Positions 4,001-22,916 are shown, counted from the stretch's first letter. The stretch: 35,205 bases of DNA from a bacterium (GCA_025774935.1 JALGZK010000021.1:1-35205); one strand, 5' to 3'. Numbers and translations: made by a program. The notes: generated by a model from the sequence alone, not told the origin.

Positions 4001-5999
4001 GATCGGCGTCTTCGTCTGCCACTGCGGGACCAACATCGCCGACATGGTCGACGTCGAGAAGGTCGTCGCGGCCTCGGGGAGGATCCCCGAGGTCAGGTAC
4101 GCGGTCGACTACCAGTTCACGTGCTCGGCTCCAGGCCAGGACCAGATCAAGGACGCGATCCGCGAGCACAACCTCGACGGTGTGGTGGTTGCCGCGTGCT
4201 CCCCGAGGATGCACGAGACCACCTTCAGGAACGCCGTCGGGAGCGCCGGGATGAACCCTTACCTCGTGGAGATGGCGAACATCCGCGAGCACGACTCATG
4301 GGTCGCGAGCGACCGGGACGAGGCGACGAGGAAGGCGATCGACCTCGTGAGAATGAAGGTGAAGAAGGTCGCGAAGCTCGAGCCCCTCGAGGAGATCGTC
4401 CTCCCCGTTACCAGGAGGGCGCTCGTCATCGGCGGGGGCGTGGCGGGCATCCAGGCCGCGCTCGACATCGCGAACACCGGAGTCGAGGTCGTACTCGTCG
4501 AGAAGACGCCGTCGATCGGCGGGCACATGGCCCAGTACGACAAGACGTTTCCCACGCTCGACTGCGCCTCCTGCATCCTGACGCCGCGCATGGTCGAGGC
4601 CGCCATCCATCCGAAGATCACGATTCACACGTTCAGCGAGGTCGTCGAGTCGAGCGGCTTCGTCGGCGCATACGAGGTGAAGATCAGGAAGAAGGCCCGC
4701 TCGGTCGACCTCGTGAAGTGCACGGGGTGCGCCGACTGTCTGGAGAAGTGCCCGGTGAAGGTCCCCTCCGAGTTCGAGGCGGGGCTCGCCGAACGCGGCG
4801 CCATCTACCGCCCGTTCCCGCAGGCCGTCCCGAACGTCCCGGTCATCGACCGGGAGCACTGCACCTACTTCCTGAAGGACGGGAAGTGCGGAATCTGCCA
4901 GAAGGTCTGCCCGACCGACGCCATCGACTTCACGGTCGAGGACGAGATCGTTACCGAGAAGGTCGGCGCCATCGTGGTCGCGACGGGGTTCCACTTCTAC
5001 GACGCCGCCAACTACACCGAGTACGGCTACGGCCGCTATCCCGACGTCATCAGCTGGCTCCAGTTCGAGCGGCTGACGAATGCGTCGGGCCCGACGAGCG
5101 GGAAGCTCGTGCGTCCTTCGAACGGAGAGGCGCCGCAGACGATCGTGTTCATCCACTGCGTGGGGTCGCGCGACCCCTCGAAGGGCTTCCCGTACTGCTC
5201 GAGGGTCTGCTGCATGGCGACGGCGAAGCACGCGGTCATCGCGCGCTCGAAGCTGCCGGACGCGGAAATCTTCTCGTTCTACATCGACATCCGGGCCGCC
5301 GGGAAGGGCTACGAGGAGTTCGTCCGCCGCGCGATCGAGCAGGAGGACATCGAGTTCATCAAGGGCCGGCCGGCGAGGGTCATCGAGAAGAACGGGAAGC
5401 TCGTCGTGCGCTCGGAGGACGCGTTCTCCGGACGTCCGATCGAGGTCGAGGCCGACCTGGTCGTTCTCACCAACGGCGCGCAGGCCCAGGACGAGGCGCC
5501 CGAGCTCGCCCAGACGCTGGGAATCGGCTACGACCAGTACGGGTTCTTCAGCGAGCTGCACCCGAAGCTCCGGCCGGTCGAGACGAACAAGGCGGGGGTC
5601 TTCCTCGCGGGCATGTGCCAGGGACCGAAGGACATTCCCGAGTCCGTCTCGCAGGCGTCGGCCGCGGCGGCCAAGGCCCTCGAGATTCTCTCGAAGGACG
5701 AGCTCTCGCGCGAGCCGCAGGTCGCCGAGGTGAACCCATTCCGCTGCACCGGCTGCATGGACTGCATGGAGGTCTGCTTCTACACCGCCATCGAGGAAGA
5801 CGAGTTTATGCGCCGGAAGGTCGCCAAGGTCAACCCGGGCGTCTGTCAGGGCTGCGGCGCGTGCGTCGCGGCGTGCATGGACGGTGCGCTCGAGATGAAG
5901 ATCTTCAACGACGAGCAGATCTACGCCGAGATCACCGGGCTCTTCGCGATCCCGAAGGGAGCGCGCAAGGCCGGCGGCGGGGAGAGCGCCCATGGGTAA
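3993..5999 (+). CDS. hdrA: Heterodisulfide reductase-like subunit A (HdrA), FAD electron-bifurcating subunit
   Basis: HdrA is the flavin subunit that, in characterised complexes, bifurcates electrons between ferredoxin and the disulfide branch. The 668-residue protein begins with the family's N-terminal FVCHCGTNIADMVDVEKV. A Rossmann FAD site GGGVAG follows near residue 145, then PSIGGHMAQYDKTFPTLDC..C. Four Fe-S motifs are present: CTGCADCLEKCP, CGICQKVCP, CTGCMDCMEVC and CQGCGACVAAC. Some archaeal HdrA proteins use selenocysteine in the region after GGHMAQ, but here the codons are ordinary Cys. The ATG at 3993 follows GGGGGGAGG; an upstream in-frame ATG at 3957 lacks a ribosome site and would overlap hdrB further. 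The stop overlaps flxD by 8 nt. Confidence 0.94.
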   Translation: MRKIGVFVCHCGTNIADMVDVEKVVAASGRIPEVRYAVDYQFTCSAPGQDQIKDAIREHNLDGVVVAACSPRMHETTFRNAVGSAGMNPYLVEMANIREHDSWVASDRDEATRKAIDLVRMKVKKVAKLEPLEEIVLPVTRRALVIGGGVAGIQAALDIANTGVEVVLVEKTPSIGGHMAQYDKTFPTLDCASCILTPRMVEAAIHPKITIHTFSEVVESSGFVGAYEVKIRKKARSVDLVKCTGCADCLEKCPVKVPSEFEAGLAERGAIYRPFPQAVPNVPVIDREHCTYFLKDGKCGICQKVCPTDAIDFTVEDEIVTEKVGAIVVATGFHFYDAANYTEYGYGRYPDVISWLQFERLTNASGPTSGKLVRPSNGEAPQTIVFIHCVGSRDPSKGFPYCSRVCCMATAKHAVIARSKLPDAEIFSFYIDIRAAGKGYEEFVRRAIEQEDIEFIKGRPARVIEKNGKLVVRSEDAFSGRPIEVEADLVVLTNGAQAQDEAPELAQTLGIGYDQYGFFSELHPKLRPVETNKAGVFLAGMCQGPKDIPESVSQASAAAAKALEILSKDELSREPQVAEVNPFRCTGCMDCMEVCFYTAIEEDEFMRRKVAKVNPGVCQGCGACVAACMDGALEMKIFNDEQIYAEITGLFAIPKGARKAGGGESAHG

Positions 6000-6435
6000 G
6001 GAGAAGGACCGGGGCTACGATCCCGTGATCGTCGGGCTCCTCTGCAACTGGTGCACGTACGCCGGCGCCGACCTCGCGGGCACGACGCGGATCAAGCACC
6101 CGCAGAACATGCGCGCGATCCGGATCCCGTGCTCCGGCAGGGTCAGCCCTCACTTCCTCTTCACGTCGCTCTTTCAGGGGGCGGACGGCGTCTTCATCGG
6201 CGGGTGCCACCCGGCCGACTGCCACTATACCTCCGGCAACTACTACGCGCGGCGCCGCTTCGCGCTGATGAAGTCGCTCCTGGACTTCGTCGGCATCGAA
6301 CCCGACCGGCTGAGGCTGGAGTGGGTCTCGGCGTCGGAGGGCGACCGGTTCGCCGAGGTCGTGACGGAGTTCACCGAGGGCGTGAAGGCTCTCGAGCGCC
6401 CGCACTCCCTGAAACGCGACGGTCTGGAGAGCTGA
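5992..6435 (+). CDS. flxD: FlxD / MvhD-type [2Fe-2S] electron-transfer subunit
   Basis: This 147-residue protein belongs to the methyl-viologen-reducing hydrogenase delta-subunit (MvhD) family. It connects HdrA to the electron donor module: a hydrogenase in methanogens, or FlxABC in NADH-linked bacterial complexes. The family's cysteine pattern is visible: CNWCTYAGAD, the Cys of PCSGRV, and GCHPADCHY, which together bind a [2Fe-2S] cluster. No hydrogenase large subunit is nearby and FlxC, FlxB and FlxA follow directly, so the NAD(P)H-linked version is favoured. The start overlaps hdrA; the gap to the next gene is 1 nt. Confidence 0.9.
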   Translation: MGKEKDRGYDPVIVGLLCNWCTYAGADLAGTTRIKHPQNMRAIRIPCSGRVSPHFLFTSLFQGADGVFIGGCHPADCHYTSGNYYARRRFALMKSLLDFVGIEPDRLRLEWVSASEGDRFAEVVTEFTEGVKALERPHSLKRDGLES

Positions 6436-6436
6436 G

Positions 6437-7285
6437 ATGATCGACCGCATTCGTGACACGGCCAGACGCTGGCTCGCCGACGGCATCGTCGACGTCTTCC
6501 TCGGATTCCGGAAGCGTCCGGACGGCACGGTCGTCCCCGTGAGGATCCGGGACGCGGGTGAGGCCGACGGTCTCTTCTTCGGCGACGGCTGCGTCCACAA
6601 CCTGATGGGCCTCGTCGACCTCAGGAGTGAGGAGAAGGTCGGCGTGCTCCTGAAGGGCTGCGACGGGCGGGCGTTCGTCCAGCTCGCGATCGAGGGCGAG
6701 GCCGACCGCGGCCGTTTCAAGGTGCTGGGAGTCGTCTGCCCGGGCCTCTCCTCGAACGGTTCGCTCGAGGAGAAGTGCGAGACCTGCCGCTACAACACGC
6801 CGCCGGTCTACGACGAGCTCGTGAAGGAAGACGGAGTGGAGTCGTGGGAGAAGGGCCCCGTCGCCGACGGGCTGGCCGAGGTCGAGTCGATGTCGCATCC
6901 GGTGCGCGCCGCCTACTTCAAGAACGAGTTCGACAGGTGCATACGATGCTACGCCTGCCGCGACATCTGTCCGCTCTGCTACTGCGAGGAGTGCGTGACG
7001 GAGAAGTCGCGGCCGCAGTGGGTCGAGGTCGGGGTCAAGACATCCTCGAACTTCTACTGGCATCTGATCCGGGCGTACCACCTCGCCGGGCGCTGCGTCG
7101 CCTGCGGCGAATGTGACCGCGCGTGCCCGGTGGACATCCCGCTCAAGTACTTGAACCGGAAGCTGAGCCGAGAGGTCGAGGAGCTCTTCGACTACGTGCC
7201 GGGTACCGACCCGGACGCCACGCCGGTCCTCCTCGAGTTCAAGGAGGACGAGGAACACGTCCTCTGTCCCGGAGACGAATCATGA
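6437..7285 (+). CDS. flxC: FlxC-like multi-[4Fe-4S] protein
   Basis: A 282-residue cytoplasmic Fe-S protein that probably relays electrons inside the Flx module. The N-terminal half resembles Fe-S hydrogenase/dehydrogenase beta-type subunits, with Cys in GDGCVHN, KGCDGR, VVCPGL and CETCRYN. The C-terminal half has two ferredoxin motifs: a crowded CIRCYACRDICPLCYCEEC and a canonical CVACGECDRACPVDIP. The cysteine content implies at least three clusters. The 4-nt ATGA overlap with the next gene indicates translational coupling. The family assignment rests on Cys motifs and gene order; the letter C rather than B is by order relative to the known flx cluster. Confidence 0.8.
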   Translation: MIDRIRDTARRWLADGIVDVFLGFRKRPDGTVVPVRIRDAGEADGLFFGDGCVHNLMGLVDLRSEEKVGVLLKGCDGRAFVQLAIEGEADRGRFKVLGVVCPGLSSNGSLEEKCETCRYNTPPVYDELVKEDGVESWEKGPVADGLAEVESMSHPVRAAYFKNEFDRCIRCYACRDICPLCYCEECVTEKSRPQWVEVGVKTSSNFYWHLIRAYHLAGRCVACGECDRACPVDIPLKYLNRKLSREVEELFDYVPGTDPDATPVLLEFKEDEEHVLCPGDES

Positions 7286-8262
7286 CCTGGATCGTTGACG
7301 ACCTCGCGGGCCTCGCCGCGTTCCTTCGGGGTAAGGGGACCGTGTACGCGCCTGTCGGCGACGGCGGGACGTGCTACGGCAAGCTCGCGCGCGAGCAGGA
7401 ACCCGAGCTCGACTCGCTCACCGACGTCTCCGCTCGACACCTCTTCCAGCCGATGACACACTACTACCTCAAGTTCGAGGACCAGCCGAACGCCGACGCC
7501 GGATTCCGCGACTTCGACACCGCCCCGCGCGTCGTCCTCGGCATGAGGCCGTGCGACCTCAGGGGGCTCGAGGTGCACGACCGCGTGTTCGCCGAGAGCG
7601 AGAGCTACAGGAAGCTCAGGAGCGCGACGACGATCGTGGGCTACCTCTGTCCGGCGCGGGAGTCGAGCTGCTTCTGCGATTCGATGGGGGGCGATCCGCT
7701 GTCCCGCGAGGGGATGGACGTCTCGCTCTACCGGACCGACGACGGGACGTACGTGGTGACCGCTGAGACGGACCGGGGACGTGCCCTGATGGACGGCGCC
7801 CCCTTCGCCCCGTCGGGGCAGGCGCCTCCTCCGAAGTTCGCCGAGGCTGACCACCCGAAGCTCGAGGCGGTTGGGCTCGCCGAGTCGCTGAACGGAACGG
7901 AGGAGTCGGACGGCTGGGAGGACATCGGGTTCGCGTGCGTCAACTGCAGGGTCTGCACGTACGTCTGCCCGACGTGCCACTGTTTCACCGTCACCGACGA
8001 GGTCTTCGGCACCGAGGGGGGACGGGCCACGGTCTGGGACTCGTGCCAGGCGAAGTCGTTCACGAAGGAGGCCTCGGGCCACAACCCGCGGGCCGGGAAA
8101 CCGGAGCGCGTCCGCCAGAGGATCCTCCACAAGTACAACTACTACCCGAAGCTGCACGGGGCCCTCATGTGCAGCGGCTGCGGCCGGTGCATCAAGGGGT
8201 GCCCGACGGGGAGGAACATCGTCGAGGAGCTGACGCTCCTGAGAGGGGGGTCGCGGTCATGA
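7282..8262 (+). CDS. flxB: FlxB-like Fe-S protein related to sulfite reductase subunit A (AsrA)
   Basis: A 326-residue protein of the AsrA/hydrogenase-beta-like family, which carries electrons to or from an AsrB/FlxA flavoprotein. The N-terminal domain contains GMRPCDLRGL and the Cys cluster CPARESSCFCDSMGGD. The C-terminal part has two [4Fe-4S] motifs: CVNCRVCTYVCPTCHC and CSGCGRCIKGCP. It overlaps the preceding gene at ATGA, and its own TGA overlaps the next ATG. Its place directly before the flavoprotein is as expected for a FlxB-FlxA pair. A sulfite reductase role is unlikely because there is no AsrC sirohaem subunit in the operon. Confidence 0.82.
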   Translation: MTWIVDDLAGLAAFLRGKGTVYAPVGDGGTCYGKLAREQEPELDSLTDVSARHLFQPMTHYYLKFEDQPNADAGFRDFDTAPRVVLGMRPCDLRGLEVHDRVFAESESYRKLRSATTIVGYLCPARESSCFCDSMGGDPLSREGMDVSLYRTDDGTYVVTAETDRGRALMDGAPFAPSGQAPPPKFAEADHPKLEAVGLAESLNGTEESDGWEDIGFACVNCRVCTYVCPTCHCFTVTDEVFGTEGGRATVWDSCQAKSFTKEASGHNPRAGKPERVRQRILHKYNYYPKLHGALMCSGCGRCIKGCPTGRNIVEELTLLRGGSRS

Positions 8263-10557: not shown

Positions 10558-10596
10558 TTGTCACGTCCGGCCCGCACACGGTCCTCACGAGCAATC

Positions 10597-10625
10597 TTGA
10601 TACAGATTTCTGACTGTGGTATCAT
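10597..10625 (+). promoter_or_regulatory. Sigma70-type promoter for the multihaem cytochrome
   Basis: TTGATA (10597-10602) and TATCAT (10620-10625) are separated by exactly 17 bp, in a locally AT-rich stretch between the upstream terminator and the cytochrome gene. It would give a leader of about 140 nt. Confidence 0.65.
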
Positions 10626-10770
10626 TTATGTGTCACTCGGAAGACCGCAGTCCGGGGCTCGAGGGCCCGCGTTGTGCGACCGGGCGCTCGTGCCCCCCTA
10701 CGCGCTCGAGAGACGGGAGGATCCCCGCTCCGACCCCGGCTCGAGACGAGCGACAGCGTGGAGGAGTGTC

Positions 10771-13413
10771 ATGAGGTCGAAAGCGCTCGCCGTCGTCCTG
10801 TGCGTTCTTCTCGTTCTCTCCGGGTTCGGCATCGCGTACGCCCGGAACCCAATCCGGCGCGATTTCTTCGACGTCTACCCCCAAGCTGAGACCACCCAGC
10901 TCGACGACCTCCCGAGCAACGCCGGCCACTGCGGCGCCTGCCACTTCGATTTCGATGGGGGAGGCGCCAGGAACGCGTACGGCGCCGACCTCGAGATCCG
11001 GATCAACGGCGGCATGACGAACGAGCAGGCGATCCTCGACGTCGAGTCGGAGGACTCGGACGGCGACGGGTTCGACAACGTCGTCGAGATTGCCGACCTT
11101 GCGAACTTCGATAACACGCCGGCGTTCCCGGGGCTCTCGTCGGGCAACGTGGGTCTCGTCCTCAACGTCAACCAGGGCGAGGTCGAGCCCTACCTGACCC
11201 CCTCCGGAGGCTCGGACACGACGCCGCCCGACGTCTCCGTCAGCTCGCCAGGCGGTGGAGAGGTTCTCGACGCCAACAGCTACTTCCCGATCGCCTACAC
11301 CGCCACGGACGACAGCGGCGTTGCATCGGTGAACATCTACCTCTCCGACGACTCCGGCGCGACGTGGAGGCCGGTGGCGAGGAACTCGACGCCGGGCACG
11401 GGCTACTCGTGGTTCGTGCCGAACCGTCCGGGAAGTGCCAACCGCATCCGGGTCGAGGCGATCGACGTCGTCGGCAACGCCGGGTACGACGACAGCGCGG
11501 GCGACTTCACGATCACCGCGACGCCTCCGGGCGTCGTTCCGACCACGTTCAGGGACATCGACATGTTCGGGACGCAGCCGTTCGAAGGGGCGATCCTGGA
11601 CGACCCGGACGCGAACTGCGCGACGTGCCACGGGAACTACGACTCCGCACACGAGCCCTGGTACAACTGGCGCGGGAGCATGATGTCCCAGGCCGCGCGC
11701 GACCCGTTCTTCTTCGCGTGCATGGCCGTGGCAGAGCAGGACGCTCCCTCGGTCGGCGACGTCTGCATCAGGTGCCACTCGCCGGGCGGCTGGCAGGAGG
11801 GACGCTCCGTCGACACGAGCGGCGACCTGCTGAACGTCAAGGACCGGCACGGGGTCCAGTGCGACTTCTGCCACCGGGCCGTCGACCACAACTACCTGCC
11901 CGGCGTGAGTCCCATCGAGGACCTGACCGTGCTCGCGACCGTCGACCCGCTCCCGCTCAACTACGGGAACGGCCAGTTCATCAACGACCCCGCGCCATTC
12001 ATGCGAGGGCCGTACTCGGACGCGCAGGCGAGTCACGCGGTTCTCGAATCGCCGTTCCACCGGTCATCGGACGTGTGCGGCCTGTGCCACGACGTCAGCA
12101 ACCCGGTCTTCGTGAGGACGGGGACCCACGACTACACCCCGACCGCGTTCGACGAGCAGCACCCGGACATGGAGATCCGGAACATGGCGCCCGTCGAGCG
12201 GACGTACAGCGAGTGGTCGCGGAGCGAGTACGCGTCCGTCGGCGTATTCGCACCCCAGTTCGCCGGCGACAAGCCCGACGGCATCGTCTCGAGCTGCCAG
12301 GACTGTCACATGCGCGACGTCACGGGGCAGGGCTGCAACGAGCCGGGAGCGCCGACGAGGACAGACCTGGGCCTCCACGACTTCACGGGGGGGAACACGT
12401 TCGTCCCCGACATCATCCCGATGTTCTTCCCGGACGAGGTCGACATCGCCCAGCTCCAGGACGCGAAGGCGCGGGCCGTGCACATGCTCGAGCTCGCGGC
12501 GACGCTCGAGGTGACGCAGGAGGAGTTCGGGGTCACCGTCCGTGTCACGAACGAGACGGGGCACCGGCTGCCCTCCGGCTACCCGGAGGGGCGGCGCGTG
12601 TGGCTACACGTTGAGGCGGTCGACGCCCTCGGCGCGGAGGTCTACGAGTCGGGCGAGTACGACTTCGAGACGGCCGAGCTCCACCACGACGAGGACGCGA
12701 AGATCTACGAGGTGCACCCGGGACTCTCGCCCGGGCTAGCCGCCGCGCTCGGCATGCCGGCGGGGCCGTCGTTCCACTTCGTGCTCTCGGACACCGTCTA
12801 CTCGGACAACAGGATCCCGCCGAGAGGGTTCACGAACGCCGCGTTCGAGGAGATCCAGTCGGCGCCGGTCGGCTATGCCTACGCTGACGGGCAGTACTGG
12901 GACGACACGGAGTATCATCTGCCGATCGAGAGCGACTCGGTGTTCGTGACGCTCTATTACCAGTCGACCTCGAAGGAGTACGTGGAGTTCCTGAGGGACG
13001 CGAACACGACGAACTCCGCGGGACAGGACCTCTACGACGCCTGGGTAACACAAGGGAAGGCGCCGCCGGTCGTGATGGGGCACGTCCGGACGGCCGTCGA
13101 CGTGACGGGCTCCGGCGTCGCCGAAGGCGAGACCTTCAAGTACGAGCTCGACCAGAACTTCCCCAACCCGTTCAACCCCGTGACGATCGTCAGCTACTCG
13201 ATCGCGGAAGAGGGGCCCGTCGAGATCGTCGTGTTCGACGTGAGCGGGAGACTCGTGAGAACGCTCGTCGATGAGGTCCGCGAGGCGGGCCGGTACTCCG
13301 TCCCGTGGGACGGAAGGAACGACGCGGGGCAGCCGCTCGCCTCCGGCGTGTACTTCGTCCGCTATGCGGCCGGCGGGCACTCGTTCTGGCGGAAGGCGGC
13401 GCTTCTCAGATAG
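10771..13413 (+). CDS. Secreted six-haem c-type cytochrome with Ig-like and C-terminal sorting domains
   Basis: An 880-residue extracytoplasmic multihaem protein. The order is: signal peptide (to about residue 26, cleavage at AYA); a first CxxCH at Cys54; an Asp-rich Ca-binding-like loop (DSDGDGFDN); an Ig-like beta domain opening with DTTPPDVSVSSPGGG; then five more CxxCH haem sites at Cys283, 332, 364, 436 and 509 in a cytochrome c554-like region. A long beta-rich region and a C-terminal FlgD-like domain follow, starting NFPNPFNP near residue 795 and ending in a basic Leu-Leu-Arg. Such C-terminal domains direct surface attachment or secretion in FCB-group bacteria. GGAGGAG (10760-10766) precedes the ATG. 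The substrate is unknown; extracellular electron transfer or oxyanion reduction are both possible. Confidence 0.88.
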   Translation: MRSKALAVVLCVLLVLSGFGIAYARNPIRRDFFDVYPQAETTQLDDLPSNAGHCGACHFDFDGGGARNAYGADLEIRINGGMTNEQAILDVESEDSDGDGFDNVVEIADLANFDNTPAFPGLSSGNVGLVLNVNQGEVEPYLTPSGGSDTTPPDVSVSSPGGGEVLDANSYFPIAYTATDDSGVASVNIYLSDDSGATWRPVARNSTPGTGYSWFVPNRPGSANRIRVEAIDVVGNAGYDDSAGDFTITATPPGVVPTTFRDIDMFGTQPFEGAILDDPDANCATCHGNYDSAHEPWYNWRGSMMSQAARDPFFFACMAVAEQDAPSVGDVCIRCHSPGGWQEGRSVDTSGDLLNVKDRHGVQCDFCHRAVDHNYLPGVSPIEDLTVLATVDPLPLNYGNGQFINDPAPFMRGPYSDAQASHAVLESPFHRSSDVCGLCHDVSNPVFVRTGTHDYTPTAFDEQHPDMEIRNMAPVERTYSEWSRSEYASVGVFAPQFAGDKPDGIVSSCQDCHMRDVTGQGCNEPGAPTRTDLGLHDFTGGNTFVPDIIPMFFPDEVDIAQLQDAKARAVHMLELAATLEVTQEEFGVTVRVTNETGHRLPSGYPEGRRVWLHVEAVDALGAEVYESGEYDFETAELHHDEDAKIYEVHPGLSPGLAAALGMPAGPSFHFVLSDTVYSDNRIPPRGFTNAAFEEIQSAPVGYAYADGQYWDDTEYHLPIESDSVFVTLYYQSTSKEYVEFLRDANTTNSAGQDLYDAWVTQGKAPPVVMGHVRTAVDVTGSGVAEGETFKYELDQNFPNPFNPVTIVSYSIAEEGPVEIVVFDVSGRLVRTLVDEVREAGRYSVPWDGRNDAGQPLASGVYFVRYAAGGHSFWRKAALLR

Positions 13414-13525: not shown

Positions 13526-14638
13526 TTACCGGTAGAGCGCCTTGATCGATCCCCAGCTTCGCGGCTGCACGGGCGAGTCCGGATCGCCGATGCGGACCGA
13601 CTTGATGTACCAACCGTACTCCTGCGTGCTCGCGCCCGAGCCGAAGAAGAAGCCGATGTGAATGCTCTCTCCGACGTACGCGCTCAGGTCGAAGCAGTCC
13701 CAGACGAATCCCGGCAGGTCGGTCGAGCTGAACACCGGCTCGCTCGCGACGCACCTCGGCCCTTCGTTGTTGGCCCGCGCGGCTATCTCATCGTATGCGG
13801 AGGCCGGCAATAACAGCTCCCACGTCGAGCCTCCGTCGGTCGAGACCTTGACGTTCCCGCCGTCCAGCTCCTCCTCGATCTCGTAGTAGTGGCACAGCTC
13901 CATGCACGCGCAGTCCACGGTGATGTCGATCGGCCCTATGATCGCGACCTGCCCGGCGTTGTTGGGATACGCGCCGTCCAGGTTCGTTCCGAGGACGTTC
14001 ACGATCGGGTCGTCCCCGCAGTCGACCGGCGGGATCGCGTCCGGCTCGCCCCACTCCCAGACCGGCGCGCCGTCGCACGCCAGCGTCGTGTACCCGGGAT
14101 TCGATTCGCTGAAGTCGAACGTATAGCACGCGTCGAGTATCGGACAGCAGTGGGAGACGGGCGTCCAGTCGTACGTGTCGAGCTCGAAGTAGCACACCCA
14201 TCCGTCGACGACAAGGTAGTAGGTCCCCGGATCCAGGCAGCCGGTCACGATCGACTCGGTCCCGGACACGAGACAGTCGAACTCGTCGCAGCTCTCGAGG
14301 AGATACAGGATGTGCGTGCACGAACTCGTCGGTATCGCGGCACCGAACGCGCGACACTCCGGTCCGTCGATCGTGATCTCGTAGACGACCTCGCCCCCGA
14401 GCAGGGACTGTGAGGGCGAGTAGCACGGGAAGCCGTACTGCGTGACGTTCGCGGGCCAGTCCCCATTGTTGTTCCAGACGGAGTCGCCGATCGTGAGAGG
14501 AACTGCGCCCGTGCAGTCGAGGAACTCGCGCTCGGGGGAAGAGACCCCGGGCGCGGGAGCATGGCGCGCTGTCTGCGGGAGCGCTGCCGCGGACATCGCC
14601 ACGACCAGAACTACGGCTAAGCAGGCCCTGTGATGCAT
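13526..14638 (-). CDS. Secreted protein with MAM/jelly-roll-like C-terminal domain, function unknown
   Basis: A 370-residue protein with a clear signal peptide (hydrophobic core after RACL, cleavage near AAALP). The middle part (about 40-170) is rich in Cys, Tyr and Asp and resembles pre-peptidase-type binding domains: DPGTYYLVVDGW. The C-terminal part (about 175-360) looks like a MAM or immune-inhibitor-A-type beta-sandwich, with CHYYEIEEELDGGNVKVS and SAYVGESIHIGFFFGSG. It lacks the FPNPFNP sorting domain found on its neighbours. No catalytic motif is visible. GGAGAGGA precedes the ATG at 14636-14638. It is the last of three leftward secreted-protein genes and has its own promoter candidate. 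Confidence 0.8.
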   Translation of the reverse strand: MHHRACLAVVLVVAMSAAALPQTARHAPAPGVSSPEREFLDCTGAVPLTIGDSVWNNNGDWPANVTQYGFPCYSPSQSLLGGEVVYEITIDGPECRAFGAAIPTSSCTHILYLLESCDEFDCLVSGTESIVTGCLDPGTYYLVVDGWVCYFELDTYDWTPVSHCCPILDACYTFDFSESNPGYTTLACDGAPVWEWGEPDAIPPVDCGDDPIVNVLGTNLDGAYPNNAGQVAIIGPIDITVDCACMELCHYYEIEEELDGGNVKVSTDGGSTWELLLPASAYDEIAARANNEGPRCVASEPVFSSTDLPGFVWDCFDLSAYVGESIHIGFFFGSGASTQEYGWYIKSVRIGDPDSPVQPRSWGSIKALYR

Positions 14639-14804: not shown

Positions 14805-16652
14805 CTACTTGAGGAGGACCAGCTTCCGGGTGACCGTGACGGGGCCCGCATCGAGCCGGCAGAAGTAGACGCCCGAGGGCAGGGTCCGACCTTGGTCATC
14901 CCTTCCGTCCCAGACGGTTGAGTGCGTCCCGGGTCCCGCCTCGGATTCCGCGAGCGTCCTGACGAGACGACCGGACGCGTCGAAGAGACACAGGCGCGCG
15001 GCGCTCCATTCCGGCAGCTCGTAAGCGATCGTCGTGGACGGGTTGAAGGGATTGGGGAAGCTCGACAGACGTGCGGTGCGTCCCGGCGAATCGCCCTCGC
15101 CAATGCCCGCCTGTGTTCTAACGAAGCCGAGGATCTCCAGGTCGTCGATGTTCCAGCCGCAGTACTGCCAGTTGTTGTCGGTCGTTCCCATCGTCCATCT
15201 GAGGTAGACGGTGGGCGAGCCGTCCGCAATGGTGGAGAGGTCGAGTTCCTGAACGACCCACTCGGTGTCCACGATCTCCGTCTGGTTCTCCCACAGCGTG
15301 GTCCAGTGCTCGCCGTCGTTGCTCGCCCGGACGTAGGCGTGGTCGGCGGCTGGCTCCTGCACGCCCAGCCACCGCCAGAATCTGATCGTGACGCCCGTGA
15401 GGTCGGAGCAGTCGATGGGGTCGCTCGTGAGATCGAGCTCCGGGATGCCCCGGTCGTAGTCGCCCGCCAGGTTGTACCCGTAGACGTTCGGCCCCGTGTG
15501 ACCCGAGGTCGGGTCGGGTCCGCCGTGCACACCTCCGGCGCCCAGGGGTTGCCCGAACTGCCAGAGGTAGTCGGTGTCCCAGTTCGGGTCGGCGTCCATC
15601 GGAAACGAGTAGACCGTCTCCCTTTCGCCTATCTCGAGGGCCACGTCACGACGTGCGTTCCCGATGTTCTCGGTCTCGTTCACGAAGAGCACTTCCGCGC
15701 GGTAAAGGCCGTCCTCGAGCGACCCGGCGTGCTCGTTGATCGAGATCTCGACCTCGATCGCCTCGCGTCCGGCGAGGGTCCCGCCGGTGCTCGTCAGGTC
15801 GAGCCACGGAGCAGCCGTCGAGACCGAGAAGGTCAGGGGATCGGGCCCTACGTTCTCGAGCGTGTATGTGACGTAAGCGGGGTCGAACGGTCCCCCGAGC
15901 GGTCCGACCGCGTGGAGCTCCTGGGCGCCGCGGACGAGGAGGCCGCGACCGGGGAGCGCAAGCGTGGATTGGAGCACGCGCCTGCCGGCCGAATGACTCT
16001 GGGCGAACGCCACGATCGCGATGGATGCGGGATCCCAGGAAGCGTCGAGGGTGAAGGTGCGCTCGACGTCGATCGCGTCACCCGGCATGGAGACCAGGAG
16101 AGGTGCCGGCTGAAGGACGTCCCGTGCGAGGAAGAACTGATCGGCGACGCCGTCCTCACACACGACGGACCACAGCGTGTCCTGAGAGGAGCCGACAGGC
16201 TCGATCGCTTCCACGTGGACGAGGAGCGTTCCATCAACGGCCGAGGCCATACGGTAGACCGCCCACATCTCGAGTGGACTGGAGGTCTCGAGCTGCCCCG
16301 AGACGATGGGGTCGTACTCGGGGAACATCGATCCGGCCCCCATACCGCCGATGCGCTCACGGTGTCCGTCGAAGATCGCATAGGGGATGAGGCCCGGACC
16401 GTACCAGTCGTACCGCGCCAGTCCCTCCGGGAGGGCGTGGGGCGGGGTCACGTACCACGTGAGGCCGACGAACTCGTGCGGCCCGTAGGCCTCGGAGAGG
16501 TCACGGAATCCGCTGACCGCGGACGGGCAGAAGACTCACCCCTGTCCGGAGAAGAGCTCCCCGAAGACGGTCCGGTCTCCTGCTGTTGCGGTTCCGAGCA
16601 GTCCGGTGGCAAGGGCGAGGCATACCACAAAGGCGGATAGGCGAGGACGCAT
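14805..16652 (-). CDS. Predicted selenoprotein: secreted Omp28/thioredoxin-like protein with UxxC motif and sorting domain (paralog A)
   Basis: The frame is open from ATG 16652 to the stop at 14805 except for one in-frame TGA (16536-16538), codon 39, which I read as selenocysteine. It gives a 615-residue protein. The order is: signal peptide (1 to about 24); a thioredoxin-like Omp28-type domain with GELFSGQG-U-VFC (Sec39, Cys42) and PYAIFDGH, where the family's cis-Pro lies; a beta-sandwich (about 200-330); a MAM-like jelly roll with WNIDDLEILG; and a FlgD-like C-terminal sorting domain starting SFPNPFNPSTT. If the TGA were a stop, the product would be a 38-residue signal peptide stub. The downstream part alone would lack a signal peptide despite carrying a surface-sorting domain. 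The ATG is preceded by CAGGGA, very close, and GGAG further up. The tandem paralog has TGA at the same residue, which argues against a nonsense mutation. Confidence 0.8.
16509..16538 (-). promoter_or_regulatory. Sec UGA codon and SECIS-like hairpin in paralog A
   Basis: In the mRNA, UGA (16536-16538) is followed by 12 nt and then the perfect 5-bp hairpin UCCGC-GGUCA-GCGGA (16523 to 16509). The apical loop begins 17 nt after the UGA and has G at its first two positions. This agrees with the bacterial SECIS rules as I recall them: loop about 16-37 nt from UGA, with a G among its first two bases. The GGUC loop start also resembles the SelB-binding loop of E. coli fdhF. The element lies wholly inside the coding sequence. 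Confidence 0.65.
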
Positions 16653-16748
16653 TCCCTGGTTCACTCCGAGCCTGAGAAGACCGTTCGCGGCGCACGTCTT
16701 AACGAGGACCGTCACGCCGCGCTGAGCAATCACTCATTAATCTGGTGC

Positions 16749-16777
16749 AGTATATCATGTCTGAGAGACGGAATCAA
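16749..16777 (-). promoter_or_regulatory. Sigma70-type promoter for selenoprotein paralog A
   Basis: On the minus strand TTGATT (16772-16777) and TATACT (16749-16754) have a 17-bp spacer, about 95 nt upstream of the ATG at 16652. The 158-nt gap between the two paralogs thus contains a separate promoter, so paralog A need not depend on read-through from paralog B. Confidence 0.6.
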
Positions 16778-16810
16778 CCTCGCTGTAGGGGGGCGCGGGC
16801 GTCCGGTGGC

Positions 16811-18664
16811 CTACTTCAGGAGCACCATCGCTCGCGTCTCGGTCGTCAGACCCGACGCGAGCCGGCAGAAGTACACACCGGATGGCAGGGTCTGCCCATC
16901 GTCGTCTCTTCCGTCCCAGTCGACGGCGTGCGTGCCCGGGCCGACCATCGCATCCTCGAGGACCCGGACGAGGCGCCCGGCGACGTCGTACACGCGGAGG
17001 CTCACTCTGGTGCGCGCTGGGATCTCGAAGGCGACGGTCGTTGAGGGGTTGAACGGGTTGGGGTAGTTCGACAGGATGGCAGCGCCGGAGGTGACGTCGC
17101 CTCCCTCGATCCCGGTGTCGTCACCGATGATGCCCCAGATCTCGACGTCGTCGATGTTCCAGCCGCAGAACCGCCCCAGTGCGTCCGTCGTTCCCATCGT
17201 CCATCGCACGTACACGGTCGACTGCCCGTCGGCGAGGGCCGACAGGTCGTAGGACACCTGCGTCCACTCCGAGTCAGCGATCTCCGAGTCGTTCTCCCAG
17301 ACCGGATCCCACCGGGTGCCGTCGGTACTCACGCGGATGTACGCGTGGTCGTAAGTCGGCTGCTCGACCCCCAGCCATCGCTGGAACCTGAGGGTGGTGA
17401 GGGAGACGTGGGAGCAGTCGATCGCCGTGGTCGTGAGATGCGTCTCCTGGAGGCCGTTCTCGTAATCGCCGCTGAGGTTGTAGCCGCAGACGTACAGGCC
17501 CGTGAATCCCGACGACGGGTCGGGCCCGCCGTACTGGCCCCCTCCGCCGGTCGGCTGGCCGTGCGCCCACAGTCCCTCCGCGGTCCAGCCTGGGTCGGTG
17601 TCCATGGCATAGCCGTACACCAGCCCCGTCTCGCCTATCTGGAGGTATGCGTTCAGGGCGGTGTCCCCGATGTGCTCGGTGTCGTTCACGAAGAAGAGCT
17701 GCGCAGTGTACAGACCCCTTCCCAGCGTCTCCGCCTCTGCGCTCAGGGCGACGGTGACCTCAGCGCTCTCGTGCCCGGTGAGCGTGCCGGTCTCGTTCGT
17801 GACGGTGATCCATGTCTCGCTCGCGAACACCGAGTACTCGATCGTCTCGGGACCGAGGTTCTCGACCGTGTACACGATGCTCGACGGATCGAATGGACCA
17901 CCCGGGTCGCCCGTCGCGTGGAGCTCGTCTTCGGGCGACACGCCGATCCCCCTTCCGTTCCGTGCCCACGTCGCCTGGAGGACCTCCTTGCCGGCAGCCT
18001 CGCTCTGCACGAAGACGATGTAGGAGACGTTGTCGAGGTTCCACCCGGCGCTCAGCGCGAACGGACGCTCGAACGACATCGTCTGGCCGGGAAGCGTCAG
18101 TGTGAGCGGCTCTTCAGGCAGAACCTCGCGCGCGAGGTTGATCTCGTGTTCGACGCCCACGTCCTCCTCGACGATGACGCACTGGACGACGTTGTCCGTC
18201 GTGGGGATCGCGGCGGTAGCGAGGATGTCGACGTAGAGCGTTCCGGCGGTCGTCGTGTTCATGCGGTAGACCGCATCGATCTCGACCGGGCTCGGGATGA
18301 CGAGGTGCGCTGCCACAATCGGGTCGTAGTCGTCGAACGTGGACCCGGACGGGTAGCCTCCGACGACCTCGTCGGTGCCGTCGAACCACGCCCACGGGGT
18401 TCCGGTGACGCCGTACCAGCTCTTCCGCTCAAGGGCCTCCGGAATCGAGTACGGCGCGCTCGTGTACCAGCTGACCGGGGCGAACTGATCGGGCCCGTAC
18501 GCCTCGAGGATCTCTCGCATTCCGCTAACTGCGGAAGGGCAGAACGCTCAGTCGGCTTTGGTGAAGAGCTCGCCCAGCACCGTGCGGTCCGAGGCGAGCG
18601 CGCCTCCGGCCGCTCCTGTCAGCACGAACGATACGAGAAGGAAGGCGAGGCAGCGAACGCGCAC
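16811..18664 (-). CDS. Predicted selenoprotein: secreted Omp28/thioredoxin-like protein with UxxC motif and sorting domain (paralog B)
   Basis: The frame is open through a single in-frame TGA (18548-18550) to the stop at 16811. With the GTG start at 18664, which has GGAGAGGAG at an ideal distance, the TGA is codon 39, exactly as in paralog A, and the two N-termini align without gaps. An in-frame ATG at 18682 has no ribosome site. The 617-residue product has: a signal peptide (cleavage near GALAS); the motif GELFTKAD-U-AFC (Sec39, Cys42); VTGTPWAWFDGT with the thioredoxin-fold cis-Pro; a beta-sandwich; a MAM-like jelly roll ending WNIDDVEIWG; and a FlgD-like domain starting NYPNPFNPSTT. It probably acts as a cell-surface or periplasmic thiol/selenol redox protein. 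Without UGA decoding, the remaining frame starts at an internal ATG (18520) and loses both its signal peptide and its redox motif. Confidence 0.8.
18520..18550 (-). promoter_or_regulatory. Sec UGA codon and SECIS-like hairpin in paralog B
   Basis: UGA (18548-18550) is followed by 11 nt and a perfect 6-bp hairpin UUCCGC-AGUUA-GCGGAA (18536 to 18520). The apical loop begins 17 nt from the UGA, as in paralog A, and has G at its second position. Both genes use the codons TCC, GCn, GTn, AGC, GGA here; the wobble differences fall in the loop, so the stem is preserved. Confidence 0.65.
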
Positions 18665-18884: not shown

Positions 18885-20474
18885 CTAGTCGGTGTCCGGC
18901 TCGTCCGGGGCCTCCGGCGGGGGGGAAGCGTCCGGAGGCTCCGATTCCGCCGGTTCGTCGGGCGCGCGCGGGGGCTCCGGCGCAGCTTCCTCGTCCGGCA
19001 TTCCGGAGTCGGCCGGCTTCGGCACCGGCTGGGGATCGCCCTCGGCCGGGGTCGCGTCGGGAATCGTCACCGACATCTCCATGGTCTTGTGGTCGTCCAT
19101 CCTGAAGTGGACCGGTACGACGACTTCCACGTTGTCATCGCCGACGCCCTCGAGCTCGAACGTCCACTGGCTCGCGGCGTCAACGGCCGCCTCGTCGAAG
19201 GTCGGGAAGCTCTCCGACCCCTCGAGGACCTCGATGCTCCACACCTCGCCGTCGGGGGTGACCGTGAGCTCGAGCACGACCTCGCCGTCCGCCCCAGCCT
19301 TCTTCGCGTCGTCCGGGTACTCGGGGTTGGCCGTGCTTTTGAGCGTGATGGTGTACGTCTTCTCCTCTGTTACTTCCAGCTCCTTCGGCGCCTCCTCCGT
19401 GGCCTCCTCGCTGCGTTCCGCGTCCCGTTCATCGTCCGCGGTGGCGAGCGTCGTCAGGGGTGAGACGGAGACGGCGACCAGGCAGACCGCCGCCAGCGCC
19501 AGACAGAACCAGTGCTTCCTCATGGGCACGAACCTCCCTTCCTGTCTCAGTCGTTCGAACCTCTGCCGGGTCAGCGACGGACCGCCGTGGGCGAATGCCG
19601 CCGCGATGCCGAGCGGCTCGAGTCCGATGCTCATCGTGCGAGCGAGCGCGCGGGCGTAGTCGGAGGGGGAGACCCCGCCCCGGACCGCCGCCTCGTCGCA
19701 GGCCATCTCGCTCGTGCTTCGCAGTCTCCTCAGAAGCGGCCAGAGCGGGGGGAAGAAGTAGAACGCGACCACGGCCGCGCGCTGTATTCCGCTCCTCAGA
19801 GGTTCGAAGCGGCGCCGGTGGGCGTCCTCGTGGAGGAGGACCGCCCTGAGTCCCGCGGCGTCGAGACGGGAGAGCACGGCCACGGGCAGGAGGATCCTCC
19901 GTCGGAACACACCGACGACCGCCGGCATGACGGGGTACGCAACGACTACGAGGGCCGCGCGCGGGACGCGCGTTCCCGCGAGCGCGCGGTCGAGCGACTG
20001 CCTGAGATCCGAGCGCAGCCGGTCGGGGTCGAGCGGCTCGGGCCTCGGGCGGCGGGCTGAACGGAACCACGCGAGGCCGAACCACACGGCGCCCGCTGCC
20101 CACAGGAGCGCGAGCACGGCTCCGGTGGCACCGATCGCGTTCAGAGCGGTGAGGTCTCCGCGCGCCGCAGCGACCGGGTCGACGATGGGCGCGGCCTTCT
20201 CCAGCCAGACCGTGATGCCGTCGAGGGTGAGTCCCGCCGCGTTCGTGCGCGAGAGGACTGGTGCGAGAGCTCGCTCAAGTGTGGGCGTGAGAAGCTGGAC
20301 GGGGAGGAGGAGCTTCGCCAGCCCGATCCACCAGAGCCCGTTCAGGAGCCGAGCGGGCGCGCGGCGCATGGCGAGAGCGAGTGCCGCGAGAACGGCGAGC
20401 ACGAGCGTCGTCTGCCAGAGGTGCGATACGACGCCGAGCCAGAATCCGTTGGGTAGTTCGAGCACTGCGAGCAC
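18885..20474 (-). CDS. BlaR1-like M56 membrane metallopeptidase fused to a TonB C-terminal domain
   Basis: A 529-residue membrane sensor-protease whose family cleaves or inactivates a BlaI-type repressor. Hydrophobic segments lie near residues 12-36, 43-63 and 108-135. The zinc peptidase motif is HEDAH (His215-His219), with the third ligand in SEMACDE (Glu256). A further membrane segment follows at about 325-348. The outer part is not a penicillin-binding sensor domain. It is an acidic linker, a TonB-C domain (about 375-460, with [29 protein letters not shown]), and a Pro/Glu/Asp-rich tail. The start is a GTG preceded by GGAG. It follows the blaI-like gene by 21 nt. This architecture is common in FCB-group bacteria; the ligand is unknown and beta-lactam sensing is not supported. 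Confidence 0.86.
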
Positions 20475-20495: not shown

Positions 20496-20900
20496 CTACT
20501 CTTCCGAGTCGTCGTCCGCCTGCTGATCCCCTTCGCCCTTCTCGGCCAGCGCCTTCTCGATCTCGCGCAGGTCCTTCACGGACACCTCGTCCATGCGCGC
20601 GAGCTGTGCGACCAGCGGGGCCGCCGCTCCGTCGAACGCGGTGTCGAGGAACCGCCGGATCTCCTTCCTGAGCATCGCCGAGGGCGAGACCGCCGAGCGA
20701 TAGACCCAGGCCTTCCCGTCCTTGCGGACGCGCTCGATGGCGCCCTTCTCCTCGAGCCTCTCCACGATCTTCCTGACCGTCGAGTAGCTCGGCGGGTCGA
20801 CGAGGTCCCTGTGTATCTCTCTGACCGTCCCCTCGCGGCGGTTCCAGAGCTTCCTCAGGCACTGGAGCTCGAAGCGGGAGAGGTCGGGGAGCGTTCCCAT
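20496..20900 (-). CDS. BlaI/MecI-type transcriptional repressor
   Basis: A 134-residue winged-helix repressor. The N-terminal domain has [23 protein letters not shown], then [31 protein letters not shown], the classic BlaI DNA-binding pattern with the recognition helix [10 protein letters not shown]. The C-terminal region supports dimerisation and ends in an acidic Gln/Asp/Glu tail. It is transcribed with, and just ahead of, the M56 sensor-protease gene, the standard sensor-repressor pairing. It probably represses its own promoter through the dyad at 20946-20964, and perhaps the divergent gene at 21138. Confidence 0.9.
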
Positions 20901-20945
20901 GGCTGCTCCTCGGGGCGATGGGGTCCGGTGGCATCAGCGACAACT

Positions 20946-20983
20946 GTCACACATATTGTGCGACGAATGTCGCGGGAAGTCAA
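20946..20983 (-). promoter_or_regulatory. Promoter and operator of the blaI-blaR1-like pair
   Basis: On the minus strand TTGACT (20978-20983), a 17-bp spacer and CACAAT (20955-20960) form a promoter. A dyad covers the -10 box: GTCACACA (20946-20953) and TGTGCGAC (20957-20964), 8-bp arms with one mismatch around a 3-bp centre. Its position fits autorepression by the BlaI-like protein. It is not the textbook TACA-TGTA site. Confidence 0.6.
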
Positions 20984-21137
20984 GTCCTTTTTGGAGGACT
21001 CGCGAGAGGCCCTGTTTGCTGTATACTGCGCCCGAATCGGGCCCCGGGTGGCCGCATCTGAACGGGGGCCGATGCAGCGACACCCCTCTCCACGAGATCG
21101 AACCTGCCGCGGGAGCCCTTCCGACGGAGGCGCGACG
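20984..21137 (+). other. Divergent leader upstream of the rubredoxin-fusion gene
   Basis: This region holds an inverted repeat AGTCCT/AGGACT (20983-21000), a TATACT box (21022-21027) without a recognisable -35 partner, and a perfect dyad GCCCGA-A-TCGGGC (21030-21042). A rightward promoter for the 21138-26795 operon should lie here; the TATACT box is the best candidate. I see no gene in it. Confidence 0.35.
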
Positions 21138-22916
21138 ATGGCACGATTCCGCTGCACCGTCTGCAACTGGATCTACGACGAAGCCGTCGAGGGAGTGCCG
21201 TTCGCGGACGTCCCCGACGACTGGACCTGCCCGCAGTGCGGCGCGCCCAAGTCGGCCTTCGTTCCGGAGGGGCTTGTCGGGGGCGATGCCGACGTCGAAA
21301 CGAACGTCGCGGACAAGATCGTCGAGCAGCTGGTGGAACTCGGCGTCGAGTGCATCTTCGGCATCCCCGGGGATTCCAACCTCCCGCTCGTCGACGCGAT
21401 CCGGCGCGACGGCCGCATCCGCTTCGTCCTCACGCGTCACGAGGAGACGGCCGCGTTCATGGCCTCGGCGTACGGGAAGATCACCGACCGGATGGGGGTC
21501 TGCATGTCGATCGCCGGTCCCGGGGCGACGAACCTCGTCACCGGCCTCATGGACGCGGAGGCGGACCGCGCTCCGGTTCTCGCGCTCGTGGGTCAGGTCG
21601 CGGAGGTGTACCTCGGGAGTGAGGCGTTCCAGGAGATCGACCAGCTCGAGCTCTTCCACCCGTTCACGGAGTACTCCGAGGCGGTCGCGCGCCCGAACCA
21701 GGCGCTTCGTCTCGTCCTGAACGCGGCGAAGTACGCGTACCGGCTGCCGGGCGTCGCGGTCCTCTCCACGCCGACCGACGTGCTCGTCGACAAACTCGAC
21801 GAGCGCGTGCACGATCACACGAAGCGTCTCTTTCGCGACGCCGCGTGTCCGAGCGAGGCGTCGCTCGAAGCCGCCGCGCGGCTGATCGACGAGCACGCGA
21901 AGGTCGCGATCCTCGCCGGCTGGGGCACGAGGCACCACGGCGGTCTCCTTGTCGCGCTGGCCGAGAAGCTCAAGTGCCCCGTGGCGACGACGTCGCGGGC
22001 GAAGGGGACCGTGCACGAGTCTCATCCGCGAGCGGTCGGAGTCCTGGGCTCGATCGGCTCAAGGCACGCGGCGAGGGCTCTCCAGGACTGCGAACTCGTC
22101 ATCGTGATCGGGACGGGCTTCCGGCACGCGAACCTGATTCCCGCCGGAACGAAGATCGTCCAGATCGACGTCGACCCGGCGAGGATCGGACGGACGTTCA
22201 GCATCGACGTCGGCCTCGTCGGGGACGCGGGCGCGGCGCTCGAGGGGATCCTCGAGAGGGTCGGCGAGAAGGAGGAGGACCCCGCGACGTGGAAGAAGGT
22301 CGACGAGCTCAGAGCGAAGGAGCGCGCCGAGTTCGAGGCGGAGGGTGGTGACCTCTCGAGTCCCGTTCATCCCGGGTTCGTCATCCAGGCCATGAAGCGA
22401 AACGTCGCAACGGACGCCATCATCACGGTCGACGTCGGCGACCACACGTACTGGTTCTACAAGAAGTTCGTGTGCGAGGGCCAACGCACGTTCCTCTCGG
22501 CCAACATCGCGAGCATGGGGTTCGGGCTCCCGGCGGCGCTCGCCGCGCAGATGGCGCATCCGGACCGACAGGTCGTCTGCCTCACGGGCGATGGTGGGTT
22601 CGGGATGCTCATGGCCGACTTCACGACGGCGGTGCGCGAGGAGCTCCCGATCAACGTCATCGTCATGAACGACGGCTGCCTCAAGAACATCAAGAAAGAG
22701 ATGAACCGGGACGGCTACCCGGAGTTCGGCATCAGCTTCCCGAACCCGGACTTCGCCGAGTTCGCGAGAACGGCGGGAGGGGAGGGGTTCCGCGTCGAGG
22801 ACCCGTCGGAGCTGGACGCGGCGCTCGCGAAGGCGCTCTCGTCGGCCAGACCTTCGCTCCTCGACGTCGTGGTCGACCGGGAGAAGATGGCAGCGTCGGC
22901 GAAGAGCATCGATTGA
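21138..22916 (+). CDS. Rubredoxin-fused thiamine-diphosphate enzyme, pyruvate oxidase-like
   Basis: A 592-residue fusion. Residues 1-40 are a short rubredoxin domain with Cys6, Cys9 (CTVC) and Cys31, Cys34 (CPQC), plus the typical DDW and GAPKSAF. From about residue 55 a complete TPP-enzyme fold of the pyruvate oxidase/PoxB-acetolactate synthase superfamily follows: [15 protein letters not shown], the catalytic Glu in TRHEETAAF, a central nucleotide-binding domain with [13 protein letters not shown] and [11 protein letters not shown], and the TPP-binding GDGGFGM...NDG motif near residue 490. The likely reaction is oxidative decarboxylation of pyruvate with electrons passed via flavin to the rubredoxin iron, but the substrate is not proven. 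GGAGG (21126-21130) precedes the ATG. It heads an operon with fumarate/succinate enzymes, 14 nt ahead of the next gene. Confidence 0.85.

Follow-up and report, generated by a model that had tools for sequence, protein, structure and literature searches.

A stretch of 35,205 nucleotides (nt) from an uncultured anaerobic bacterium (GCA_025774935.1, JALGZK010000021.1:1-35205; hereafter the window) contains, in the region 14805-18664, two tandem genes, gene A and gene B, each with a single in-frame UGA codon. Our analysis indicates that both are selenoprotein genes, the products of which would be sorted to the cell surface by the type IX secretion system (T9SS) and act there as thioredoxin-like oxidoreductases with selenocysteine (Sec) in the active site; we put the probability of this reading at roughly 85%. 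Judged from sequence comparison, UGA almost certainly codes for Sec in both genes, and insertion of Sec in the cell is strongly supported. The computed evidence comprises the Sec machinery of the genome, an alternation of cysteine (Cys) and Sec in relatives, a hairpin of the Sec insertion sequence (SECIS) type, the fold, the sorting tail, and the T9SS component SprA. Sorting tail and SprA together suggest a location at the surface, while fold and motif argue for redox chemistry by Sec39 and Cys42. An earlier note on this DNA had proposed selenoproteins, a proposal that is borne out by the machinery, by the alternation of Cys and TGA at the column in question, and by the hairpins.

Reading frames and Sec codons

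14805..16652, minus strand: gene A, predicted secreted Omp28/thioredoxin-like selenoprotein (615 amino acids, Sec39; full-length homologues with one TGA)
16811..18664, minus strand: gene B, predicted secreted Omp28/thioredoxin-like selenoprotein (617 amino acids, Sec39, GTG start)
16578..16652, minus strand: gene A, predicted signal peptide, about residues 1-25 (sequence reading, and aligned hydrophobic leaders in all orthologues)
18590..18664, minus strand: gene B, predicted signal peptide, about residues 1-25 (sequence reading)
16536..16538, minus strand: gene A, putative Sec codon TGA, codon 39, first residue of UxxC
16527-16529, minus strand: gene A, putative resolving Cys42
18548..18550, minus strand: gene B, putative Sec codon TGA, codon 39, first residue of UxxC

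With TGA translated as Sec (U), gene A reads MRPRLSAF...GELFSGQG-U-VFCPSAVSG over 615 residues and gene B reads VRVRCLAF...GELFTKAD-U-AFCPSAVSG over 617 residues, each with exactly one TGA, located shortly after the predicted signal peptide and in place of the first Cys of a CxxC motif in a thioredoxin fold. These translations confirm what the earlier note had described, namely two frames of about 615 codons with a single TGA at codon 39, UGA contexts that align without gaps, and the downstream proline loops PYAIFDGH and TPWAWFDGT, both of which are present. Its assignment of UGA to the first Cys of CxxC in a thioredoxin-like domain likewise holds, by the motif and by the fold match to HBP35 and Omp28 (see below). 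To this description we add the strand: both genes lie on the minus strand, and a plus-strand reading of the same coordinates yielded no sensible protein. The GC content at third codon positions is 0.84 in gene A and 0.88 in gene B across the whole frames, similar to the neighbouring genes. Since other genes of the window terminate in TGA (5992-6435, 6437-7285, 7123-8262, and others), the standard code applies and UGA is not reassigned, as the note had also stated.

Sec machinery of the genome

The genome to which the window belongs is a draft of 3.24 Mb in 40 contigs, with a completeness of 96%. A search of it for selA, selB, selC and selD, which the earlier note had suggested, found all four: the tRNA-Sec gene selC (71.5 bits, confirmed by ARAGORN), SelB (344.6 bits, above the cut-off), SelA (533 bits), and SelD (371 bits). 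An in-frame TGA (read as CAG-U-ASK) also interrupts the selD gene, which is located at C14:177978-178895, about 150 bp upstream of the tRNA-Sec gene. SelA was found in 17 of 20 genomes of the phylum, which makes it nearly phylum-wide.

Sec and Cys in relatives

Homologues were searched for in whole genomes with read-through of all stop codons. The codon at the Sec column was counted over all loci fetched, amounting to 91 distinct relatives. This column, in which the earlier note had proposed to look for Cys or TGA, holds TGA in 43 relatives, TGC in 31 and TGT in 17 (48 with Cys), and nothing else (0 other); tryptophan (Trp) is found there in no relative. Loci brought in by a pattern scan of named genomes ([YF]CPSAV[ASE]G, a pattern that excludes the Sec column), each listed once, include none with Cys at this column.

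Full-length orthologues of genes A and B carry exactly one TGA each, always in the same column of the alignment, and are 44-49% identical along the whole frame. Because all orthologues found in relatives have TGA at the same codon, its presence at codon 39 is not due to chance. Stops within the domain matches are exclusively TGA, with no TAA or TAG in the 23 matches of the phylum search or in the 40 matches of the wide search. Three matches to the model NF045500 had displayed an in-frame TAG or a double TGA; these were gone when the domain alone was matched, and the extra stops therefore lie beyond the domain.

A second group of paralogues, located in a conserved cluster (C14:115-119k in the genome of the window), carries TGA in the majority of genomes and TGC or TGT in others. 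The switch between Cys and Sec is also seen between close orthologues (TGA in genome G015 versus TGT in G004). In a tree of 90 domains, calculated with the Sec column removed, the distribution of Sec and Cys requires 8 changes, at least 4 of which are forced by well-supported branches. Both genes of the window belong to a clade of 22 rows (support 99), all with Sec. Its members are from genomes that probably belong to Candidatus (Ca.) Effluviviacota, from Krumholzibacteriota, and from metagenome-assembled genomes with the labels Latescibacterota, Gemmatimonas and Fibrobacter; such labels are given as deposited.

A SECIS-type hairpin downstream of UGA

Published rules for the bacterial SECIS element (bSECIS) call for a stem of 4-16 bp that closes a loop of 3-9 nt with a G within its first two positions, at a distance of 16-37 nt from UGA (PMC13188914). 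The hairpins of both genes agree with these rules in loop, stem, G position and spacing:

16508..16524, minus strand: gene A, SECIS-type hairpin GUCCGC-GGUCA-GCGGAU, loop 17 nt after UGA (synonymous-codon null, p=0.010)
18520..18536, minus strand: gene B, SECIS-type hairpin UUCCGC-AGUUA-GCGGAA, loop 17 nt after UGA (synonymous-codon null, p=0.002)

The null consists of synonymous recodings drawn from the codon usage of each gene itself. Among the relatives, a stem of at least 4 bp at a spacing of 16-20 nt is present in 40 of 43 TGA genes versus 13 of 48 Cys genes, counts that are descriptive, as related sequences are not independent. The mean stem score amounts to 14.9 in TGA genes versus 9.6 for their synonymous recodings, and to 7.2-7.3 in genes with a Cys codon versus 6.6-8.2. 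There are 22 different hairpins, with swapped base pairs at most positions. A scan of the window against Rfam gave no match, bacterial SECIS elements being too variable for this to count as a test.

Domain architecture and proposed mechanism

15954..16577, minus strand: gene A, thioredoxin-fold and Omp28-type beta domain (alignments, AlphaFold model of the paralogue domain, fold search)
17966..18589, minus strand: gene B, thioredoxin-fold and Omp28-type beta domain (AlphaFold; best fold matches HBP35 and Omp28 of Porphyromonas gingivalis)
15723..15863, minus strand: gene A, BACON-like domain (weak, under the Pfam cut-off)
17720..17866, minus strand: gene B, BACON-like domain (26.1 bits, cut-off 25)
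15132..15392, minus strand: gene A, MAM-like / choice-of-anchor J region (weak)
17138..17461, minus strand: gene B, MAM-like / choice-of-anchor J region (under curated cut-offs)
14817..15059, minus strand: gene A, C-terminal FlgD-like / T9SS type A sorting domain (TIGR04183, 26.9 bits, cut-off 23; PF13860)
16832..17065, minus strand: gene B, C-terminal FlgD-like / T9SS type A sorting domain (TIGR04183, 30.8 bits, cut-off 23; PF13860, 38.2 bits)

The AlphaFold model of the N-terminal domain of gene B has a predicted local distance difference test score (pLDDT) of 95 and a predicted template modelling score (pTM) of 0.91. Its best match in the PDB is HBP35 (5y1a; E 2e-10, TM score 0.78 normalised by query, 14% identity), and Omp28 of P. 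gingivalis (2r2c) is matched as well (E 1e-4, probability 1.00). SprA, a part of the T9SS translocon, is encoded in the same genome (529.8 bits summed).

We propose a mechanism in which SelB with Sec-tRNA(Sec) would decode UGA at codon 39 as Sec, guided by the hairpin with its apical loop from 17 nt after UGA. The signal peptide would export the product, and the FlgD-like C-terminal tail marks it as a probable type IX cargo, which would end up on the outer membrane or beyond it. The N-terminal Omp28/HBP35-like thioredoxin fold would provide a Sec-x-x-Cys site, with Sec39 as the attacking selenolate, Cys42 as the resolving thiol, and the proline loop. The protein would most likely serve a strict anaerobe as a thiol/disulfide (or peroxide/selenenylsulfide) oxidoreductase at the cell surface.

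Counter-arguments and alternative explanations

Several observations weigh against this interpretation. Copies with Cys in the syntenic cluster are mostly from genomes that also have SelA (17 of 20 genomes), so the use of Cys is not due to a loss of the Sec pathway. A close relative (L017, in genome G012) is without a hairpin that passes the test. Folding energy alone (over 36 nt) is not significantly below the null in most genes, which is a weak test, and we therefore base the hairpin claim on position and loop rule. Of the T9SS parts, the search covered SprA. Finally, an electron donor outside the cell for a Sec protein at the surface is not obvious.

The alternative with most weight, which we still regard as unlikely, accepts Sec and differs in function: the proteins may have an Omp28-like structural or ligand-binding role (e.g. 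haem), with UxxC required for folding and not for catalysis. The nearest structure, HBP35, also binds haem (PMC2907840), and six haem motifs are present in the secreted product of a neighbouring gene, which is syntenic in genome G008. On the other hand, Sec is a costly residue and is kept without exception in the clade, and its place at the attacking position of the thioredoxin motif points to catalysis.

A decoding of UGA as another residue, either as Trp by a changed code or as Cys by a special tRNA, appears very improbable. An insertion of Cys would fit the alignment too, as the aligned residue of the relatives is Cys. Against either version stand the UGA terminators of other genes of the window, the absence of Trp from the column, the full Sec set of the genome including a Sec-type SelD, and the hairpin after UGA, which is required for Sec and not for a reassigned codon.

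Just as improbable is a role of UGA as a regulated terminator, by which mostly a short product would be made, with read-through only at plentiful selenium and no need for the full protein. Decoding of UGA as Sec is generally inefficient, and some relatives have Cys at this position, both of which could be taken in its favour; the product of 38 residues would however be hardly more than a signal peptide, and a catalytic domain and a sorting tail are conserved downstream of UGA across the clade. That the genes are ordinary ones interrupted by a stop, whether as pseudogenes or by errors of sequencing or assembly, could be suspected in a draft of 40 contigs, yet is already refuted by conservation, given the same TGA in independent assemblies from several phyla, the exclusive use of TGA and never TAA or TAG, and the identity of 44-49% and high third-position GC throughout the frame.

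Relation to known families

The earlier note had regarded the two genes as a candidate new selenoprotein family. This stands in part only: a related family was already predicted, and the novelty lies in the subfamily with the sorting tail, in its expansion and in where it occurs. A 2026 review equates the NCBIfam model NF045500, the "Omp28-related selenoprotein", with the "Hypothetical protein GOS_C, UxxC" (PMC13188914), a family of no known function that was predicted on the basis of 74 Sec and 312 Cys sequences (Zhang and Gladyshev, 2008; PMC2398784). The proteins of the window are relatives of NF045500/GOS_C, with which they share UxxC in a thioredoxin-like/Omp28 domain and predicted Sec with Cys homologues, and the model is matched by 21 of 21 members of their clade. 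As NF045500 already models an Omp28 selenoprotein, they are not the first of this kind.

With 28.5 and 59.5 bits they nevertheless stay far below the curated cut-off of 200, and their matches stop near model position 264, without the C-terminal part (about 266-376), which in other genomes matches thrombospondin type 3 and dockerin-like repeats (by eye). In its place they have the BACON, MAM-like and FlgD/T9SS domains. By this score below the cut-off and the other C-terminus the subfamily is distinct; none of 386 genomes contained a member of NF045500 above 200 bits, and the comparison with GOS_C was made through the model. The new part is a subfamily with a T9SS/FlgD-type sorting tail, multiplied in one genome and present across several phyla.

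HBP35 of P. gingivalis requires both Cys of the active site for its thioredoxin activity and is brought to the surface by the Por/type IX system (PMC2907840; PMC3120885). It resembles the proteins of the window in its thioredoxin fold with beta domain, its C-terminal T9SS signal and its anaerobic host, and differs by two active-site Cys without Sec, by an identity of 14%, and by haem binding, which is a feature of HBP35. Surface location and thioredoxin activity are known for HBP35 and, by analogy, predicted here. The Omp28 lipoprotein family (PF11551, NF033782) has the same domain fold (2r2c), and PF11551 is matched by 16 of 21 clade members at E<0.1 (best 1.6e-9); gene B, however, reaches 17.3 bits and gene A gives no match, against a gathering score of 34.9 over the whole protein. 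The window proteins are under the curated cut-offs of both models, which are without described Sec. Bacterial selenoproteins of the Trx, DsbA-like, DsbG-like and Prx-like types follow the same UxxC active-site logic and belong to different families.

A sorting domain is not mentioned in the 2026 review (PMC13188914; 0 occurrences of "sorting"). Among open-licence papers, nothing relevant was found that ties selenoproteins to the type IX system. Searches for literature joining Omp28 with selenoprotein, or naming the Omp28-related selenoprotein, likewise found nothing.

Paralogues and genomic neighbourhood

The genome contains six UGA-containing Omp28-like genes: the two described here and four others, of which two are at C14:116-118k and one each at C1:179k and C21:19k. 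One paralogue of the CxxC form is located at C14:115k, at the head of the C14 cluster. The four further UGA paralogues (C14:112500-125500, C1:177000-182000, C21:17500-20500) display the motifs USFCP, UGSCP, USFCP and USTCP. A group of small Omp28-like proteins (about 305-350 amino acids; L177, L178, L179, L182, L114) has the motif YEH[FY][TS]AxWU(S/G)(T/S)CP, and in several genomes of the phylum Sec is predicted in this group too. Outside the phylum of the window, genome G123 (L148; C185, C186) contains several Omp28-like genes with a single in-frame TGA, which suggests a separate expansion.

The neighbours of the selenoprotein genes include:

13526..14638, minus strand: secreted MAM-like protein, adjoining the selenoprotein gene also in G008
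10558..13413, plus strand: secreted protein, six CxxCH haem motifs, FlgD-type tail (72% identical to its syntenic copy in G008)

The protein encoded at 10558-13413 also has a weak MtrC/MtrF-like match. G008, which belongs to another genus of the same family, has the gene order of the window (HdrA, FadL-like, cytochrome, MAM-like, selenoprotein); in Krumholzibacteriota the neighbours of the selenoprotein gene differ. The cytochrome neighbourhood shared with G008 is suggestive of an extracellular redox role, and is not a proof of it. As a speculation that we consider rather improbable, the multiplied T9SS-carried Sec thioredoxins and the secreted multihaem cytochromes might form a seleno-redox system at the surface for extracellular electron or thiol exchange, with a Sec-fixed clade across several anaerobic phyla.

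Elsewhere in the window, a rubredoxin domain precedes a complete thiamine-diphosphate enzyme in a long open reading frame (20811-22916), possibly an unusual fusion or the result of a wrong start. At 18885-20474 a BlaR1-like M56 peptidase domain is joined to a TonB C-terminal domain; a stretch 74% identical to it adjoins the gene B orthologue in G002.

Implications

Gene calling with the standard code splits both genes at codon 39, and the signal peptide and the catalytic residue are therefore lost. Read through, the products would be among the first selenoproteins to carry a type IX sorting tail. Ca. Effluviviacota, in which a single genome holds six UGA-containing paralogues, joins the lineages that use selenoproteins; the paper describing Ca. 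Effluviviacota makes no mention of selenium. The finding raises the questions of how a residue as reactive as Sec persists extracellularly and by what it is reduced there. It also offers a natural test of Sec retention, with one clade that is all Sec and a sister group that moves between Sec and Cys.

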